A stretch of DNA of 64,000 bases. Origin: Fibrobacter sp. GTDB lineage: Bacteria; Fibrobacterota; Fibrobacteria; Fibrobacterales; Fibrobacteraceae. Shown here in pieces: positions 56,193-63,796 of the stretch. The DNA lies in the NCBI GenBank assembly GCA_017412605.1, contig JAFPWY010000010.1:62001-126000 (forward strand), written 5' to 3'. Position 1 is the first letter of the stretch. The number at the start of each line of letters is the position of its first letter. The translations under genes were made by a program, and so were the position numbers. The notes beneath the pieces were generated by a model. It saw nothing but the letters and a program-made list of their open reading frames with translations. It was not told the DNA's origin and searched no databases.

Positions 56193-56320
56193 GGAAAATA
56201 GGCTCGTACACAACGTAAATCGATATAGGTGTTTAAATAATCTTTTTTTACGCAGGTTTAAAAAAATATACATTTGGTTACGAAATCATTACATTCTTTA
56301 TGGATAAAAAGGAACTCTCT

Positions 56321-58009
56321 ATGAGAAAAAGCATACTTGTTGCATCTGGTTTTGTCGCTGGCATCGTGCTTATGGTTGCGTGTAGCGACGAAGTTACCAA
56401 GGTGACCAATGTGAGTGAGAACGCTTCTGTTGACTCTGTCAAGGAATTTGAGGCGCTTCCGAAGTGCGAAGAAAATGTTGAAGGTACGCTCATATACGTG
56501 AAGGATTCCGCGAAGGTGTTCGGTTGCACTGGTGACGGCTGGGTTCGGGTCAATGGTAAGGATGGCGACAAGGGCGCCGAGGGCGACAAAGGTGCCAAGG
56601 GTGACGATGGAGAAAACGGTACGAGTTGCTCTGTCAAGGCCAATAAAAACAAGACCGGTTTTGATATCGTTTGCGGTGGCAAGACTGTAGGAACTGTATA
56701 TAATGGTGAAAATGGCGAGGCTGGTAAGAAGGGTGACGAAGGAGACAAGGGTACCGATGGTAAAAATGGTACGAACTGCACCGCCAAGGCCAACAAGGCC
56801 AAGACCGGATTCGAGATTACTTGCGATGGCAAGTCCGTAGGAACCGTCAAGAACGGAGAAAAAGGTGAAGCCGGTGAAGGCTGCACGCTTACGGAAGACG
56901 AAAATGGTCAGGTCGTTGTAACCTGTGGTGAAAAGTTTGTAACACAGTTCAGGGCCTCTTGCGGTATCGGTTCTTACGACCCGGCGACCCAGTTCTGTGC
57001 GTTCGACCTGAATGTCTACCCGCTCTGCCACAAAACATTGGAAGGTTTCGAACAAAGCCTTAATGCCGATGGTACCTATGACGTGGAATCCTATTTCTGC
57101 GACGTGACGGACCTCCTTGTGCCTTTGTGCAATGCACAACCCTACGACTTCACGACTCAGTTCTGTGCTGGTTACAGCTTTGGTGCCGTACCACGTTGTC
57201 ACAAGGAACCCGAAGGCCTTGGTCAATTTAGTAGGGATGGAGTCTATGACAGAAATAGTTATTTCTGTGATGCGAATGACTCGCTCGTTGCCCTTTGCGG
57301 GGATGACACGTACGATACGGAACTTCAGTACTGCGATTTGAGTGGAACTGAACCGAAGGTCGCTGCATTGTGCGCTGGTCAATCGTACGAACTTGAGACT
57401 CATATGTGCGTCGATGGCCAGATTAAAGAAGCTATCGCCTGCTGCATCCCCGAAGGACAGAACAGCAACTGGTGTAACGGTCATGCAAGTTCACGCTACG
57501 ATATCCGCAAGCAGTTCTGCGACACGCGCGATGGCCGTCCTTACAAGTACGTTGATGTCATCGCAAAAAATGATTCCGGGAATGTTGTTTACTCCGAAAC
57601 TTGGATGGCTGAGAACTTGAACTATGCAGGAACGGAAGAAGGTGAGTCTGATTGTTATGGCGGCATTTCTTCCAATTGTGATGCGGATGGCCGTCTTTAT
57701 ACTTGGAATGCTGCTTTAAGCTATTGCCCGGATGGTTGGGACTTGCCTACAAGTCAGCAATATGCTGATTTGTTTGAGGCTGCTGAGGAATATGGGATTA
57801 GTTATAAATTCCTAGACCATCGAGCAGGATATAAGGGATCAGGTAGTTGGAATAATAAGGGAAGAACTTCGATGATATGGACGTCGAACGAAAGTACGAG
57901 TGATGCAACTAAGGCATGGCGTATATACTTATCGAATGGTGTATACAATAATTCGAATACTGATCTGAAGACAAATCTTGAATCTGTTATTTGTATTAAA
58001 CACAAATAA
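56321..58009 (+). CDS. Collagen-like FISUMP lipoprotein, first of three tandem copies
   Basis: A 562-aa surface lipoprotein. Signal peptide MRKSILVASGFVAGIVLMVAC, with lipobox Cys. A conserved head follows (DEVTKVTNVSE ... AKVFGCTGDGWVRVNG). Then Gly-x-y collagen-like stretches (GKDGDKGAEGDKGAKGDDGENG type) alternate with about 30-residue modules NGTSCSVKANKNKTGFDIVCGGKTVGT. A Cys-rich region of 30-40-residue repeats follows (YDPATQFC, YFCDVTDLLVPLC, YDFTTQFC). The C-terminal 150 residues are the FISUMP domain (VYSETWMAENLNYAGT, GRLYTWNAALSYCPDGWDLP, ESVICIKHK). I chose 56321 by comparison with the paralogues. Confidence 0.88.
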   Translation: MRKSILVASGFVAGIVLMVACSDEVTKVTNVSENASVDSVKEFEALPKCEENVEGTLIYVKDSAKVFGCTGDGWVRVNGKDGDKGAEGDKGAKGDDGENGTSCSVKANKNKTGFDIVCGGKTVGTVYNGENGEAGKKGDEGDKGTDGKNGTNCTAKANKAKTGFEITCDGKSVGTVKNGEKGEAGEGCTLTEDENGQVVVTCGEKFVTQFRASCGIGSYDPATQFCAFDLNVYPLCHKTLEGFEQSLNADGTYDVESYFCDVTDLLVPLCNAQPYDFTTQFCAGYSFGAVPRCHKEPEGLGQFSRDGVYDRNSYFCDANDSLVALCGDDTYDTELQYCDLSGTEPKVAALCAGQSYELETHMCVDGQIKEAIACCIPEGQNSNWCNGHASSRYDIRKQFCDTRDGRPYKYVDVIAKNDSGNVVYSETWMAENLNYAGTEEGESDCYGGISSNCDADGRLYTWNAALSYCPDGWDLPTSQQYADLFEAAEEYGISYKFLDHRAGYKGSGSWNNKGRTSMIWTSNESTSDATKAWRIYLSNGVYNNSNTDLKTNLESVICIKHK

Positions 58010-58140
58010 CATCTTGACCCCAAAATTTATAATATGAGGAAAGGATAATTCTCATGAAAAAGAATGTAATTGTAGCATCAGGTATTGCCGCTAGCTTAGC
58101 CCTTTTGGTTGCTTGTGGCGACGAAGTTACCGAAGTGACC
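57968..58140 (+). repeat. Near-identical 170-bp junction, copy 1
   Basis: The last 14 codons of one gene, the 44-bp spacer and the first about 28 codons of the next are repeated at 59692-59864 with only about three differences, far closer than the rest of the genes. Confidence 0.9.
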
Positions 58141-59733
58141 AATGTGAGCGAGATGGTAACTCTTGATACAGTCAAGAAATTCAAGGAACTCCCGAAGTGC
58201 GAAGAAGATTCCGAAGGCTCGGTCATGTACGTGAAGGATTCTGCAAAGGTGTTTGTCTGTACCAGTGACGGTTGGACCCGTATGAATGGTAAAGACGGCG
58301 AAAAAGGCGACAAGGGCGCCGAGGGTGACCAGGGCGCTGCCGGCGATAAAGGTACGAGCTGCACTGCCAAACAGACCAAGGACAAGACGGGGGTTGATAT
58401 CGTTTGTGATGGCAAGACCGTCGGTACTGTCAAGAATGGCAAGGATGGTAAAGATGGCGAAAAGGGTGACCAGGGGCCTGACGGTCTATCAAAAACGAGT
58501 TGCTCTGCCAAGACCAACAAGGACAAGACCGGATTCGATATTCTTTGCGGTGGCAAAACCGTTGGCACAATCAAGAATGGTGAAGATGGTGAAAAAGGTG
58601 ATGCCTGCACGCTTACGGAAGGTGAAAATGGTCAAGTCCTTATAGAGTGCGGCGAAGAATCAGTGACGCTGTTCAAGGCTTCGTGCGGTGCCGGCACTTA
58701 TGATCCGGCGACCCAGTTCTGCGCAAGCAACATGAAGGTCTATCCGCTCTGTCACAAAGCATTGGAAGGCTTCGAACAAAGCCTTAATGCCGATGGCACC
58801 TATGACGTGAAATCCTATTTCTGCGACGTGACGGACCTCCTTGTGCCGTTGTGCAAGGCAAAAACCTATGACTTCACGACTCAGTTCTGCGACAATCATT
58901 TAATTTTCAGCCGTTGCGACAGTATTGCCGAGGGCTTAGCTGAAAACGTCCTCAAAGAAGGTGGCCAGTATAACAGTATAGATTACTTCTGCAGCGAGAA
59001 GGGTGTCCTTTATGAAAAATGTGCTGGAAACTCGTACGATCCGGATCTTCAGTTCTGCGATAGGAGTGAAGAGAATCCTCAGGTCGTTGCAAAGTGCGGT
59101 GGCCAGACGTACGAAATTAAGACTGAGAAGTGCGTCGATGGCCTGGTCGAATCGGCTATAGCCTGCTGCATTAAGGAAGGACAGAACGATAAATGGTGCG
59201 AGGATCATCCAAATTCATTATACGATATCCGCAGTCAGTTCTGCGACACGCGCGATGGTCAGCCCTACAAGTTCACTGAGATTACTGTAAAGGGAGATTC
59301 CGGGAAAGTTGTTTACTCCGAAACTTGGATGGCTCAGAATTTGAACTATGCGGGAACGGAAGAGAGCGAGTCTGATTGTTTTGGTGGCATTTCTTCTAAT
59401 TGTGATGCAGATGGCCGTCTTTATACTTGGGATGCTGCTGTAAATTATTGCCCGGATGGTTGGGACTTGCCTTCAAAGCAGCAATTTACTGATTTGTTTG
59501 AGGCTGTTAATAAATATGGGGTTAGTTATAGCTTCCTCGGCCAACATGCTGGATTCTATGGACCCCAAGGTTGGGAGGGTCATGGGGTCCATTTGTTGAT
59601 GTGGACGTCTGAAGAATGTACGGATGATGTATCAAAAGCATGGCGTATAGATATAAAAGATGGCTCATATACCGATTTAGTTATCAATCCAAAGACAAAT
59701 CTTGAATCTGTTATTTGTATTAAACACAAATAA
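58054..59733 (+). CDS. Collagen-like FISUMP lipoprotein, second tandem copy
   Basis: A 559-aa paralogue of its neighbours. Lipobox LLVAC-GDE (Cys about residue 21). The first collagen-like block (GKDGEKGDKGAEGDQG) is followed by TSCTAKQTKDKTGVDIVCDGKTVGT, a second GKDGKDGEKGDQGPDG block, another TSCSAKTNKDKTGFDILCGGKTVGT module and a third short block. The Cys-rich middle (about 205-400) has about seven YDxxxQFC-type units. The FISUMP domain (about 410-559) includes GRLYTWDAAVNYCPDGWDLP. GAGGAAAGG precedes the ATG. The spacer from the previous gene is 44 bp with no terminator, so co-transcription is likely. Confidence 0.88.
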   Translation: MKKNVIVASGIAASLALLVACGDEVTEVTNVSEMVTLDTVKKFKELPKCEEDSEGSVMYVKDSAKVFVCTSDGWTRMNGKDGEKGDKGAEGDQGAAGDKGTSCTAKQTKDKTGVDIVCDGKTVGTVKNGKDGKDGEKGDQGPDGLSKTSCSAKTNKDKTGFDILCGGKTVGTIKNGEDGEKGDACTLTEGENGQVLIECGEESVTLFKASCGAGTYDPATQFCASNMKVYPLCHKALEGFEQSLNADGTYDVKSYFCDVTDLLVPLCKAKTYDFTTQFCDNHLIFSRCDSIAEGLAENVLKEGGQYNSIDYFCSEKGVLYEKCAGNSYDPDLQFCDRSEENPQVVAKCGGQTYEIKTEKCVDGLVESAIACCIKEGQNDKWCEDHPNSLYDIRSQFCDTRDGQPYKFTEITVKGDSGKVVYSETWMAQNLNYAGTEESESDCFGGISSNCDADGRLYTWDAAVNYCPDGWDLPSKQQFTDLFEAVNKYGVSYSFLGQHAGFYGPQGWEGHGVHLLMWTSEECTDDVSKAWRIDIKDGSYTDLVINPKTNLESVICIKHK

Positions 59734-59864
59734 CATCTTGACCCCAAAATTTATAATATGAGGAAAGGATAATTCCCATGAAAAAGAATGTAATTGTAGC
59801 ATCAGGTATTGCCGCTAGCTTAGCTCTTTTGGTTGCTTGTGGCGACGAAGTTACCGAAGTAACC
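59692..59864 (+). repeat. Near-identical 170-bp junction, copy 2
   Basis: Offset by exactly 1724 bp from copy 1, and includes the same spacer and ribosome-binding site. It marks a recent tandem duplication or gene conversion. Confidence 0.9.
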
Positions 59865-61508
59865 AACGTGACTGAAAAGGCTTCGCTTGGTCAGGTCAAG
59901 AAATTCAAGGAACTTCCGAAGTGCGAGGAAGATATCGAAGGCTCCCTCATGTACGTAAAGGATTCTGCCAAGGTGTTTGTCTGCACCGGCGACGGCTGGG
60001 AGGGTTTTGATGGCGCCGTTGGTGAAAAGGGCGATAAAGGCGACAAGGGTGTTGCCGGCGATAAGGGCACGAGCTGCACTGCTAAACAGACCAAGGACAA
60101 GACCGGTTTTGATATCGTTTGCGGTGGCAAAACTGTGGGCACCATTAAGAATGGTGAAAATGGCGAGAATGGTGAAAAGGGTGCCCAGGGCGACAAGGGC
60201 GAAGATGGTGAAAACGGTACGGGCTGCACTGCTAAACAGACCAAGGACAAGACCGGTTTCGACCTCGTATGCGACGGCAAGACCGTGGGCAACGTTAAAA
60301 GTGCCGAAGATGGTGAAAAAGGCGATGCTTGCACGCTTACGGAAATTGAAAATGGCCAAGTCGTCGTAAAGTGCGGTGAAAAATCTGTGACGTTGTTCAA
60401 GGCTTCGTGCGGTATCAATTCTTATGACCCAGCAACCCAGTTCTGCGCGAACGACATGAAGGTCTACCCGCTCTGTCATAATACGCTTGCCGGGCTTGAA
60501 CCGTATCTCAATCCTGATGGCACTTACAACGTGCAGCGGTATTTCTGCGATGCGTCGGACCTCCTTGTTTCGTTGTGCGTTACCACAGCATACGATTACA
60601 CGACGCAGTTCTGCTCCCGTTCTACAGTCCTCAATCGTTGCAACAGTGTTGCCGAGGGCTTAGCTGAAGACCTCCGCAACGACGATGGTTCTTATAACGG
60701 TATGGATTACTTCTGCAGCGAGAAGGGAGTCCTTTATGAAAAATGTAATGGAAGTCCGTATGACCCGGATCTTCAGTTCTGCGACAGAACAACTAATCCT
60801 GAAAGCCCCCAGGTCGTTACAAAGTGTGGTGAACAGACGTATGTCCTTGAAACCCATATGTGCGTCGATGGTCAGGTTGAAGAAGCTATCGCCTGCTGCA
60901 TTCCCAAAGGACAGAACGATAAATGGTGCGACGACCATGCAAATTCTTTATACGATGTCCGCAAGCAGTTCTGCGATACGCGCGATGGCCAGCCCTACGA
61001 GTTCAAGACGATTACTAAGACAAATGGAAATGGTGAAGTTGTTTATTCCGAGACTTGGATGACGGAAAATTTGAAATACACAAATACGCAGGATGGCGAA
61101 TATGTGGCTCGCCCCGACGATGATTGCTTTATGTATGGATGTTACTATACATGGGATGCCGCGCAGAATTATTGCCCGGAGGGCTGGGATTTGCCGGATA
61201 ATGCTGATTATCTTGCTTTGACGGTCGCTTTTGGCTCAAGCTCCCCAGATTATCGTGTAAATGGTTCGAATGCAACTGGCTTCTCTTCACCAACTACGGG
61301 CGGCATTTATAACGGGAGTAGTTTTGAAAACAGCAGTAATGCTTATTATTGGTCTAAAACAGAACGCGCTCTTCTGGACGATGAAGAAGAGTCTCCTTCT
61401 GCTCACCGTTTCTTTGTTGGTCCTAGCAGCACCGGCAGTGTGAATTTCGTAAATACTGCGTTGAAGACTCATTATCTGTTTGTCCGCTGCATCAAGGACA
61501 AGAACTAA
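59778..61508 (+). CDS. Collagen-like FISUMP lipoprotein, third tandem copy
   Basis: A 576-aa paralogue. Its head is the same as that of the second copy. Collagen-like blocks (GEKGDKGDKGVAGDKG, GENGENGEKGAQGDKGEDGENG) alternate with two TKDKTGFDxVC modules. The Cys-rich middle follows. The FISUMP C-terminus differs from the other two: after CPEGWDLPDNADYLALTVAFG it has a glycine/serine-rich segment and ends HYLFVRCIKDKN, nearer to the 24300 gene. So the first two copies share a recent 3' end while this one has kept or gained another. It ends at paired hairpins. Confidence 0.88.
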   Translation: MKKNVIVASGIAASLALLVACGDEVTEVTNVTEKASLGQVKKFKELPKCEEDIEGSLMYVKDSAKVFVCTGDGWEGFDGAVGEKGDKGDKGVAGDKGTSCTAKQTKDKTGFDIVCGGKTVGTIKNGENGENGEKGAQGDKGEDGENGTGCTAKQTKDKTGFDLVCDGKTVGNVKSAEDGEKGDACTLTEIENGQVVVKCGEKSVTLFKASCGINSYDPATQFCANDMKVYPLCHNTLAGLEPYLNPDGTYNVQRYFCDASDLLVSLCVTTAYDYTTQFCSRSTVLNRCNSVAEGLAEDLRNDDGSYNGMDYFCSEKGVLYEKCNGSPYDPDLQFCDRTTNPESPQVVTKCGEQTYVLETHMCVDGQVEEAIACCIPKGQNDKWCDDHANSLYDVRKQFCDTRDGQPYEFKTITKTNGNGEVVYSETWMTENLKYTNTQDGEYVARPDDDCFMYGCYYTWDAAQNYCPEGWDLPDNADYLALTVAFGSSSPDYRVNGSNATGFSSPTTGGIYNGSSFENSSNAYYWSKTERALLDDEEESPSAHRFFVGPSSTGSVNFVNTALKTHYLFVRCIKDKN

Positions 61509-61610: not shown

Positions 61611-62144
61611 TTAGTTCTTTGCTTGGCTGAACATCTTCTTCAGCATGGTCTTGATCGGTGCCGGCAGCAGGGATTTGGGCTGCTTGCTAAACCAAACGAT
61701 GTATGCGCTGCGGGCCTGGACCGAGTAGGAATTGATGAGCTGGCGCTGGTTGTTGTATATGTCGAACCGGACTTCGATGCGGTCGGGTCTGAATGACCAT
61801 CCGGTAAGACGGTCTTCCCAGTGCAAAATTTGCGGGGCAATGATGTAGTCGAATTGTTGCAGGGTGTTGTCATCGAGATTCTGTACCGGGACAGGGGTCG
61901 GGATGGTCGATATGGATTGGGTGTATCGGCTCAGCTCCTTGGAGAGGATTGTGATAACATCGTTACCGGAGGTCGGGTACTCGGTGCCTTCATAGGTCCC
62001 GTTGACTGGCGTGATTAGCAGAAACCGCGCTGGAGTGAATTGATCATTGCCTTGCTGCATGAATGCTTGCTGGTACGATGCGGTACACCCTGTTGCAAGT
62101 ATGGCAAAAATGGCGAGAAATCCGAGAACGATAGTTTTTTTCAT
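61611..62144 (-). CDS. DUF4823-like lipoprotein
   Basis: A 177-aa protein. Lipobox ATG-C (Cys about residue 20), followed by TASYQQAF. The body matches the DUF4823-type pattern: VITILSKELSRYTQSI, DYIIAPQILHWEDRLTGWSFRPDRIEVRFDIYNN and a late VQARSAYIVWFSKQP. These are small envelope lipoproteins of unknown function. AAGGAACAATCTC before the ATG gives the start. Single gene. Confidence 0.78.
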   Translation of the reverse strand: MKKTIVLGFLAIFAILATGCTASYQQAFMQQGNDQFTPARFLLITPVNGTYEGTEYPTSGNDVITILSKELSRYTQSISTIPTPVPVQNLDDNTLQQFDYIIAPQILHWEDRLTGWSFRPDRIEVRFDIYNNQRQLINSYSVQARSAYIVWFSKQPKSLLPAPIKTMLKKMFSQAKN

Positions 62145-62437: not shown

Positions 62438-63796
62438 ATGAATAAGAAATTTGTAGGGGCGGTGGCCCTATCCTTGTTTTTCCAGGTTTCCGCATTCGCC
62501 CAATTTGGCGGTTTCGGTGGACCACAAGGTGGCGGCAGCGTTCCAAATGCCGATAAGACTGCCGATGTAAACTACGTCGGCGATGGAAAAACCTACCATA
62601 CACTGGACATTTACATTCCCCAGGAAGCCAAGGATTCATATCCGGTGGTCATCCACACTTACGGCAGCGCCTGGAGCAGTAATAACATGAAGGGCCAGGC
62701 GGACTTGAGCACCATCTGTGCCGCCTATGTCAAGGCGGGCTACGCAGTCGTGACCCCGAACCATCGCGCGGCAAGCGATGGCATATACCCGGCGCAGTTG
62801 CACGACATCAAGGCCGTGGTGCGCTTTGTCCGAGGCAATGCGGCCAAGTACAAGTTCGATACGAATTTTGTGGCCGTGTCCGGATTCTCTTCGGGCGGTC
62901 ACCTTTCGAGCCTTACTGCGACGACCTGCGGCCTGAAGGAAGGTAAGTCCGGCTCGGTGACGGTTGACCTGGTCGGTGACCTCGGCGAGTTCACTTCGCT
63001 TAGCAGCTGCGTTGACGGTGCAGTGCTCTGGTCTCCTCCGACCGACATCTACACGATGAACCCCATCAGCATGGGTGGCTCCGGAACCATGGAAGGCGCC
63101 TTCATTGGTGTGGAACGCGAAGGCAACAAGGACAAGTGGATGGTCGCCAGTTCGCCTTACTACGCAAGTGACGACGATCCACCGGTAATCATGTTCCACG
63201 GTACGTCCGATAACATCGTGAATATCGAGCAGAGCCAGGAACTCTACGATTCCCTCAAGAACCACAATGTGGTCACTGAATTTGTCAAGGTGTCGGGAGG
63301 TTCCCATGGTGGTGACAAGATGAACTCCTCTGAAAACCTGGACAAGGCGGTCGCCTTCCTGAATAAGGCTCGCGAGGCCAAGGCTGCCGCTGCGGTGACG
63401 ACTCCTCCGGCAACTGGTGATTCTACGACGACGCCTCCTGCGACGGGTGATTCCACGACCACACCTCCTGCGACCGGTGACTCCACGACCACGCCTCCCG
63501 CAACCGGCGATTCTACGACGACTCCTCCTGCAACAGGTGATTCTTCTGTGACTGCATCTCCCGCAACGGGCGATTCTACAGTGACGGCTCCTCCTGCAAC
63601 AGGCGATTCTACAGATGCTCTCCCTGCTATGCGCTCGGTCGTTTCCGGTTCGACTACGTACAAAGTATTCTCTCTTGACGGAACACTTGTGATGAAATCC
63701 TCCACGCTCAATCTCTCGCGTTTGAATTCGGGTGTCTACTATGTCGTGGCAACTCGTGCCGGAGCACGTCAGGTGTTCCGCATCGCGAAACCCTAA
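62438..63796 (+). CDS. Secreted alpha/beta-hydrolase esterase with T9SS-like C-terminal domain
   Basis: A 452-aa protein. Signal peptide ending VSAFA-QFGG. The hydrolase domain (about 40-310) has YHTLDIYIPQEAKDSYPVVIHTYG, the nucleophile VSGFSSGGHLSSL (G-x-S-x-G), MFHGTSDNIV (acid Asp) and VSGGSHGG (His), as in the bacterial BD-FAE/xylan esterase group. A linker of about seven TTPPATGDS repeats follows (about 322-392). The C-terminus YKVFSLDGTLVMKSSTLNL, then LNSGVYYVVATRAGARQVFRI, resembles the type IX secretion sorting domain (TIGR04183 type). It probably removes ester groups from hemicellulose. Confidence 0.85.
   Translation: MNKKFVGAVALSLFFQVSAFAQFGGFGGPQGGGSVPNADKTADVNYVGDGKTYHTLDIYIPQEAKDSYPVVIHTYGSAWSSNNMKGQADLSTICAAYVKAGYAVVTPNHRAASDGIYPAQLHDIKAVVRFVRGNAAKYKFDTNFVAVSGFSSGGHLSSLTATTCGLKEGKSGSVTVDLVGDLGEFTSLSSCVDGAVLWSPPTDIYTMNPISMGGSGTMEGAFIGVEREGNKDKWMVASSPYYASDDDPPVIMFHGTSDNIVNIEQSQELYDSLKNHNVVTEFVKVSGGSHGGDKMNSSENLDKAVAFLNKAREAKAAAAVTTPPATGDSTTTPPATGDSTTTPPATGDSTTTPPATGDSTTTPPATGDSSVTASPATGDSTVTAPPATGDSTDALPAMRSVVSGSTTYKVFSLDGTLVMKSSTLNLSRLNSGVYYVVATRAGARQVFRIAKP
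63399..63620 (+). repeat. 27-bp tandem repeats encoding (T)TPPATGDS
   Basis: About seven degenerate copies form the Thr/Pro linker of the esterase. Synonymous differences between copies show that the array is not brand new. Confidence 0.85.

Follow-up and report, generated by a model that had tools for sequence, protein, structure and literature searches.

Three adjacent FISUMP lipoproteins

Fibrobacter lacks cellulosomes and has few crystalline-cellulose-binding modules, and how it holds on to crystalline cellulose is an enduring question (PMC3079729). The FISUMP domain family is very large in the Fibrobacter lineage, and the papers searched assign it no role; literature searches on FISUMP in this genus, or on the domain name itself, retrieved nothing. 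The window analyzed here, a stretch of 64,000 nucleotides from a Fibrobacter sp., encodes three FISUMP proteins side by side (P1, P2, and P3; Table 1). On balance, we lean toward the reading that each of the three genes encodes an outer-membrane lipoprotein that forms homotrimers and serves as a stalked adhesin for plant fiber.

A sequence-only reading of the window had described a trio of adjacent FISUMP paralogues at 56321-61508, and all three plus-strand open reading frames indeed scored above the TIGR02145 cut-off of 41.65 bits (P1, 78.6; P2, 89.9; P3, 86.9), with P2 and P3 being 62% and 55% identical to P1. Each protein starts with a lipobox and a head, continues with two Gly-x-y blocks, two-Cys modules of 30 aa, and Cys repeats, and ends in a FISUMP domain. 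That reading described the "TKDKTGFDIVC" modules and YDPATQFC-type Cys repeats correctly, and the parts of its four-part layout are all present, although it missed the head, a distinct 59-aa domain between the lipobox and the first collagen block. The trio belongs to a larger, genome-wide family: 22 proteins carry the head, and tandem arrays of six, three, and three genes occur among them.

By inspection, the lipobox reads MVAC or LVAC, ending in Cys21, and is followed by SDEVT or GDEVT; a CGDE, CGDD, or similar start occurs in nearly all heads of the family. The trio proteins are most likely membrane-tethered outer-membrane lipoproteins, and the acidic residues after the Cys, together with the relatives, suggest that they are probably exposed on the cell surface. 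Promoters and terminators predicted for the trio were no more numerous than in shuffled sequence. Phase variation by simple repeats was also considered and set aside, as the tandem repeats of the trio are coding repeats of the collagen blocks and modules.

Table 1. Features of the three FISUMP lipoprotein genes (window coordinates).
Feature	Position	Strand	Basis or remark
P1, collagen-stalked FISUMP lipoprotein, 562 aa	56321..58009	+	alternative upstream ATG at 56300
P1 lipobox Cys21 and head, aa 21-79, collagen XV/XVIII trimerization-domain-like	56381..56557	+
P1 collagen block 1, 8 Gly-x-y triplets	56555..56626	+	run count vs shuffles
P1 two-Cys module 1 (C103-C118)	56621..56704	+	three-stranded in P3 model
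P1 collagen block 2, 8 triplets	56705..56776	+	run count vs shuffles
P1 two-Cys module 2 (C153-C168)	56771..56854	+
P1 Cys-rich repeats, YDxxTQFC type, weakly galaxin-like	56948..57535	+
P1 FISUMP / C-type-lectin-like domain	57512..58006	+	TIGR02145 profile
44-bp spacer P1-P2	58010..58053	+	sequence nearly identical to P2-P3 spacer
P2, collagen-stalked FISUMP lipoprotein, 559 aa	58054..59733	+
P2 lipobox Cys21 and head	58114..58287	+
P2 collagen block 1, 8 triplets	58288..58359	+	run count vs shuffles
P2 collagen block 2, 6 triplets	58438..58491	+	run count vs shuffles
P2 Cys-rich repeats	58672..59259	+
P2 FISUMP / C-type-lectin-like domain	59236..59730	+	TIGR02145 profile
44-bp spacer P2-P3	59734..59777	+
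P3, collagen-stalked FISUMP lipoprotein, 576 aa	59778..61508	+	full-length FISUMP match
P3 lipobox Cys21 and head	59838..59993	+	profile and template-free model
P3 collagen block 1, 9 triplets, first two overlapping head end	59994..60074	+	run count vs shuffles
P3 two-Cys module 1 (C100-C115), three-stranded meander	60069..60152	+	model
P3 collagen block 2, 7 triplets	60153..60218	+	run count vs shuffles
P3 two-Cys module 2 (C150-C165)	60219..60302	+	model
P3 Cys-rich repeats, confident array of short strand pairs	60396..60980	+	model
P3 FISUMP domain, C-type-lectin-like fold	60966..61499	+	TIGR02145 profile and model

The FISUMP tip and its structural relatives

For P1 and P2, the TIGR02145 match is confined to the first half of the model. 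Scored per protein against PF09603 (Fib_succ_major; cut-off, 33.9 bits), P3 reached 58.6 bits, and P1 and P2 reached 30.9 and 32.5 bits, while the genome search counts P1 and P2 over this cut-off with neighbors included. The structural model of the FISUMP domain (pLDDT 91.9) found its best matches in the C-terminal domain of Lcl (8q4e; Z 8.4, 3.2 Å over 103) and in Bd2740 (8oks; Z 8.2). Foldseek alone gave no significant match for this model, and a sequence search with a profile of the Cys and FISUMP regions found no PDB or Pfam relative; the fold assignment thus rests on the model, from which a C-type-lectin-like fold is confidently predicted.

Legionella pneumophila Lcl (NF046116; C-terminal domain PF07603/DUF1566, PDB 8q4e) shares with the trio a collagen-like stalk and a C-terminal C-type-lectin-like head, and proteins that combine collagen with DUF1566 have been reported in other FCB-group bacteria (PMC11162425). 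However, Lcl begins with an amphipathic helix, has no lipobox or trimerizer-like head, and contains proline in its repeat (PMC11162425), whereas the trio has a lipobox and Cys21 anchor, interrupting two-Cys modules, and a Cys-rich rod. Against the NF046116 equivalog cut-off of 500 bits, P3 scored 18.4 and P1 and P2 were unlisted, and the trio did not pass the PF07603 cut-off either. As predicted for the trio, the mosaic adhesive trimers (MATs) of Bdellovibrio (Bd2740, PDB 8oks) join a trimeric shaft to a conserved N-terminal part and to tips that can be exchanged, one of which has a C-type lectin fold, and they form a mosaic repertoire within one genome (PMC10769870). Their shafts are intertwined beta-prisms in proteins of ~1000 aa (PMC10769870), whereas the trio proteins are lipoproteins whose sequences and models have collagen blocks and three-stranded modules where a MAT has its trimeric beta-prism shaft. 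The C-terminal domains of Lcl and Bd2740 are both trimeric adhesin tips (PMC11162425, PMC10769870).

Cargo of the stalk and the probable target

The genome encodes 115 FISUMP domains, with only 18 FISUMP proteins on a collagen stalk. Here and in six further genomes, a GH5 cellulase sits on this head and stalk in place of FISUMP. Because close relatives carry a cellulase where the trio has FISUMP, the stalk probably serves to hold fiber-binding and fiber-cutting parts in general. In F. succinogenes S85, the FISUMP protein FSU_2794 was detected in the cell envelope during growth on cellulose but not on glucose (PMC4619616). The adhesion to plant material suggested by the sequence-only reading gains circumstantial support from the GH5 cargo and this S85 protein, but the ligand itself is one that we infer.

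The stalked trimers may instead bind other targets, such as other microbes, host mucus, phage, or the cell's own exopolysaccharide, with the large, fast-changing FISUMP set serving in partner recognition or evasion and not in attachment to a substrate. We regard this as unlikely, albeit with several observations in its favor. A total of 115 FISUMP domains seems many for a single substrate, and FISUMP is the least constrained part of these proteins (omega 0.49-1.13, compared to 0-0.27 for the head, in nine pairs compared), although the raised omega could be relaxed constraint. Moreover, of the two closest relatives by structure, Lcl binds host glycosaminoglycans (PMC11162425) and Bd2740 comes from a family of prey-recognition fibers (PMC10769870), and diversity-generating retroelements (DGRs) are known to target the Fib_succ_major domain elsewhere (PMC4159848). 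The GH5 cellulase on the same stalk in several genomes and the S85 envelope protein seen on cellulose but not on glucose argue for plant fiber over these targets.

Head and stalk

The best match of the head, by both profile and model, is the trimerization domain of collagen XV/XVIII (PF20010, PDB 3n3f and 3hsh), and both domains adjoin Gly-x-y sequence. Collagen XV 3n3f was the top match of the head profile among all PDB sequences (E 0.0025), and PF20010 matched 10 of 15 heads (best 3.7e-6), with two paralogue heads passing its cut-off in the genome search. A template-free model of the head (core pLDDT 81-86) matched 3n3f with a Foldseek probability of 0.94-0.98 (1.1 Å/24 and 2.5 Å/39 columns), and the six top places in VIA-align were taken by collagen XV/XVIII domains or fusions carrying one (Z 3.5-4.4). 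These matches are weak in absolute terms: PF20010 scored 16.0-17.7 bits on the whole trio proteins, below its curated cut-off of 23.8, the Foldseek E-values exceed 0.1, and the best VIA-align row (Z 4.4) has an rmsd of 6.6 Å over 52 residues. The trio head also differs in being bacterial, lying N-terminal to the collagen, and having a conserved Cys pair, and the likeness could stem from common descent or from convergence. Trimerization of the trio proteins is a well-supported prediction.

Across the genus, Gly-x-y sequence follows 75 of 76 distinct heads scoring above 50 bits, compared to one of eight weaker heads. As weaker relatives of the head exist without collagen, and the paralogue L063 keeps a good head and a FISUMP domain around a degenerate, Gly-free spacer with Gly changed to Ser or Asp, use of the head is not restricted to collagen.

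The Gly-x-y runs (8 + 8 triplets in P1, 8 + 6 in P2, and 9 + 7 in P3) exceed the longest in 3,000 shuffles per protein (5-6), which bears out the term "collagen-like," but PF01391 scored only 18.2-21.9 bits per trio protein, under its curated cut-off of 27.2, and P1 and P2 exceed this cut-off only with neighboring blocks summed. The sequence-only reading had itself named stretches too short and charged to trimerize as an argument against its proposal, and the blocks come close to this, being short (6-9 triplets in the trio) and highly charged, with proline making up 0.9% of the Gly-x-y triplets in the whole family. Since the blocks are short and almost proline-free, the stalk probably depends on its flanking domains; the stalk trimerizing on its own is unlikely. 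The proposal that collagen stalks trimerize and present FISUMP gains independent support from the trimerization-domain-like head, which immediately precedes the first collagen block, and from the Lcl/Bd2740-like tip. The models are of monomers, which cannot form a triple helix, and the low confidence of the collagen blocks in them is uninformative. Sequence searches found no PDB or Pfam relative of the two-Cys modules.

It is rather doubtful that the blocks are merely flexible, charged spacers without a triple helix, in monomeric lipoproteins with a lectin-like tip. Their shortness and scarcity of proline, and the L063 spacer that lost its Gly beside a retained head and FISUMP, would fit such monomers, but the Gly-x-y periodicity persists behind nearly every strong head genus-wide, in runs of up to 30 triplets, and the head resembles a known collagen trimerizer. 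A single heterotrimer of the three products, comparable to the three chains of C1q and giving one fiber with three FISUMP tips, is highly improbable in spite of the adjacent, co-directional genes, similar heads, and 44-bp spacers, as the blocks vary in length by one or two triplets across the trio, which would break the register, and as arrays elsewhere comprise four or six genes and many members stand alone.

Proposed mechanism and diversification

For homotrimeric stalked adhesins, the lipidated Cys and the acidic start that follows it (CGDEV or similar) would anchor the protein and probably direct it to the surface, where the head would gather three chains at the membrane. Short Gly-x-y triple helices, broken by the two-Cys three-stranded modules, would form a segmented stalk, and a rigid rod of Cys-rich repeats would bear the C-terminal FISUMP domain with its C-type-lectin-like fold, modeled with high confidence. 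The exposed face of FISUMP may bind a polysaccharide or glycan, most plausibly plant fiber, and the stalk would be a reusable display unit, with the GH5 cellulase replacing FISUMP in relatives. More tentatively, and with somewhat less than even confidence, a bacterial counterpart of the multiplexin (collagen XV/XVIII) trimerization domain may build segmented collagen stalks as a common, scaffoldin-free Fibrobacter platform for surface display of exchangeable lectin-like binders and cellulases, diversified by module recombination. The word "collagen" is absent from the S85 genome, expression, and proteome papers examined. With a C-type-lectin-like fold at the tip of a stalk that is probably trimeric, and a cellulase on the stalk of relatives, FISUMP becomes a testable candidate for attachment and display. 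If true, a collagen XV/XVIII-like trimerization domain beside a bacterial collagen would be useful for the study and engineering of collagen assembly. Streptococcal Scl1/SclA and Scl2/SclB matched the trio weakly through the collagen part, far below cut-off, and differ in their Gram-positive LPXTG anchor and in heads unlike those of the trio.

Tandem copies may recombine by module to give a varied set of binding tips. The weaker constraint on FISUMP than on the head also counts in favor of the stalked-adhesin reading. A DGR was considered as a source of variation, but the genome has a single RVT_1 (PF00078) match, in a protein of 538 aa that carries a long C-terminal extension, is encoded far from the trio, and by inspection does not look DGR-like; diversification is thus attributed to recombination and divergence. 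The parts of these proteins evolve as a mosaic, and one gene (L128, 6663-8363) combines a P2-like head (92%) with a P1-like Cys region (90%).

Gene Layout and Family Size

The window encodes three adjacent plus-strand genes (P1, P2, and P3; 56321-61508) for collagen-stalked FISUMP lipoproteins of one layout, as the sequence-only reading had proposed. The protein families encoded indicate a Fibrobacter as the source genome. Each protein has a lipobox and exceeds the cut-off of TIGR02145 (FISUMP), the full model being covered in P3 only, and their longest Gly-x-y runs (8, 8, and 9 triplets, respectively) lie beyond chance, as 3,000 shuffles per protein reach at most 5 or 6. P2 and P3 share 62% and 55% identity with P1, and the P1-P2 and P2-P3 spacers, 44 bp each, differ by a single base, identifying P2 and P3 as tandem duplicates or copies evened by conversion.

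The adjacency of the trio stands, but its confinement to three members does not, as a search profile built from the 59-aa region between the lipobox and the first Gly-x-y block (the "head") gives strong scores for 22 proteins of the window's genome, with a distinct gap before weaker matches. The head-bearing genes are grouped in a six-gene array and two three-gene arrays, one being the trio, in addition to single genes. FISUMP lies at the C-terminal end in 19 of the 22 proteins, 18 of these 19 have a collagen stalk, and the genome contains 115 FISUMP domains. Of 168 genomes of the phylum, 70 contain the head with an E-value no higher than 1e-10, and almost all of these belong to the same genus. 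In a set of 76 distinct heads scoring above 50 bits, drawn from the window's genome and others, Gly-x-y comes after 75, a coupling favored by the profile having been made from collagen-bearing proteins; in the remaining one (L063), a degenerate Ser/Asp spacer takes its place.

Several variants were observed within the family. The L063 protein retains head and FISUMP around a Gly-free KDS/DSS spacer and represents a natural stalk mutant, and the L065 protein has a head and collagen followed by a Ser/Lys-rich tail with no recognised cargo. In two species (L049 and L132), the last member of the C3-type array breaks off ahead of FISUMP at almost identical positions. A stalk search in other genomes of the genus also found collagen-like frames of ~850-1,030 aa.

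Locations of the trio, its relatives, and other genes (plain positions, the window; L, DNA stretch around a relative, with positions counted within it; C, contig; G, genome, G000 being that of the window)
Feature	Location	Strand	Setting
P1	56321-58009	+	adjoins P2
P2	58054-59733	+	between P1 and P3
P3	59778-61508	+	last of trio
DUF4823 protein	61611-62144	-	between trio and esterase
BD-FAE type esterase	62438-63796		next-but-one gene after trio
Six-gene head-bearing array	L049		C3, G000
Three-gene head-bearing array	L054		C8, G000, at contig end
Array members ending before FISUMP	L049:6698-7717; L132:10103-11092		
Stalk mutant	L063:3389-4579		C9, G000
GH5 protein	L064:1769-4036		C7, G000
Ser/Lys-tailed protein	L065:3123-3899		C15, G000
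Mosaic relative	L128 6663-8363		
RVT_1 protein	L148:1108-2724		C15, G000
Collagen-like frames	G060:C3:204675-206237; G100:C11; G135:C15; G136:C4		other genomes of genus

Head Domain

The Pfam model for the collagen XV/XVIII trimerisation domain (PF20010) matches P1-P3 just upstream of the collagen, below its cut-off, and its best eight matches genome-wide consist entirely of this family's heads, of which two exceed the cut-off. Among isolated heads, 10 of 15 match PF20010 (best 3.7e-6). When all PDB sequences are searched with the head profile, the top match is the collagen XV domain 3n3f (E 0.0025), with EGTFIYLRDSTEFFIRVRDGWKKL of collagen XV aligned opposite EGSLMYVKDSAKVFVCTGDGWEGF of P3. 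In a template-free model, built from family sequences only, the head consists of a strand, short helical turns, and three strands (pLDDT 81-86). With this model, Foldseek matches collagen XV/XVIII domains with a probability of up to 0.98, and the top six VIA-align matches are collagen XV/XVIII domains or fusions carrying one (Z 3.5-4.4), supporting a predicted resemblance to the collagen XV domain. Sequence and model are concordant, yet each match is modest; a putative trimerising role of the head thus has good support, while common descent is unproven. Weaker relatives of the head also occur without collagen.

Stalk and FISUMP Tip

The stalk consists of blocks of 6-9 triplets alternating with 28-32-aa modules, each having one conserved Cys pair and modelled, with low confidence, as three-stranded meanders. 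Proline makes up 0.9% across 1,453 family triplets, in which GKD, GKN, and GEK predominate. Collagen helices this short and proline-free are expected to be weak, and would therefore likely depend on the head, the two-Cys modules, and the tip to keep three chains together.

The model of the Cys-rich region and FISUMP of P3 (mean pLDDT 91.9) shows the former as a weakly galaxin-like array of short strands. Models support FISUMP as a putative C-type-lectin-like domain. A Z of ~8 is often reached by models for which Foldseek gives no clear match, but the VIA-align list is headed by two bacterial adhesin tips, Lcl-CTD (8q4e, Z 8.4) and Bd2740 (8oks, Z 8.2). Level with these are a formylglycine-generating-enzyme-like protein and C-type lectins; a DGR variable protein and intimin come next. 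FISUMP is also related by sequence to DUF1566/Lcl_C, both in the present matches and in published work (PMC4159848).

Mosaic Evolution

Region-by-region comparisons reveal a mosaic pattern in which modules have been exchanged between copies. Between species, dS is ~0.2-0.5 for head and stalk in most pairs and 0.02-0.11 for the Cys region in all pairs except one, and a relative on L128 combines a P2-like head (92%) with a P1-like Cys region (90%). FISUMP has the greatest freedom of all regions to vary at the protein level (omega 0.49-1.13 in nine pairs, compared to 0-0.27 for the head), as expected for either a binding tip or relaxed constraint.

Cellulase on the Same Stalk and Potential Function

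A protein elsewhere in the window's genome (L064) shares the lipobox, head, and two-Cys module of the trio, with collagen of 12 + 6 triplets, and carries a GH5 cellulase at its C-terminal end (PF00150, E 7e-34) besides a weak CBM11-like match. The GH5 sequence contains NEP and GEYG motifs, which we take to be the expected surroundings of the two catalytic GH5 glutamates. The same head-collagen-GH5 architecture is found in six further Fibrobacter genomes (L129, L133, L136, L138, L139, and L140), in two of them as tandem gene pairs. The GH5 domain on a trio-type stalk ties this stalk to plant cell-wall digestion.

Trio-type proteins may form homotrimers that are exposed at the cell surface and bind plant polysaccharide. 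In a proteome study of S85, one member of the wider FISUMP family was detected among the envelope proteins, with 3 and 10 peptides on the two celluloses used and none on glucose (PMC4619616). In its way of working, the trio is likened to Lcl, which has a trimer mass, a lollipop outline in electron micrographs, and sulphated glycosaminoglycan binding (PMC11162425), and to mosaic adhesive trimers. However, the trio falls outside the Lcl cut-off and differs from Lcl in its anchor, and the beta-prism shaft of mosaic adhesive trimers is not seen; we therefore class it apart, as a novel form of collagen-stalked, C-type-lectin-tipped adhesin. The open-access literature searched yielded no account of collagen-like proteins from Fibrobacter.

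Neighboring and Other Genes

The only RVT_1 match in the window's genome is a 538-aa protein (L148) that has a long C-terminal extension and adjoins an ATPase-like gene; it resembles a defense-type enzyme more than a DGR enzyme. Downstream of the trio, beyond a DUF4823 gene, lies a gene for a BD-FAE type esterase, in which a 30-base repeat (TTPPATGDST) recurs approximately seven times and the tail is weakly type-9-secretion-like.
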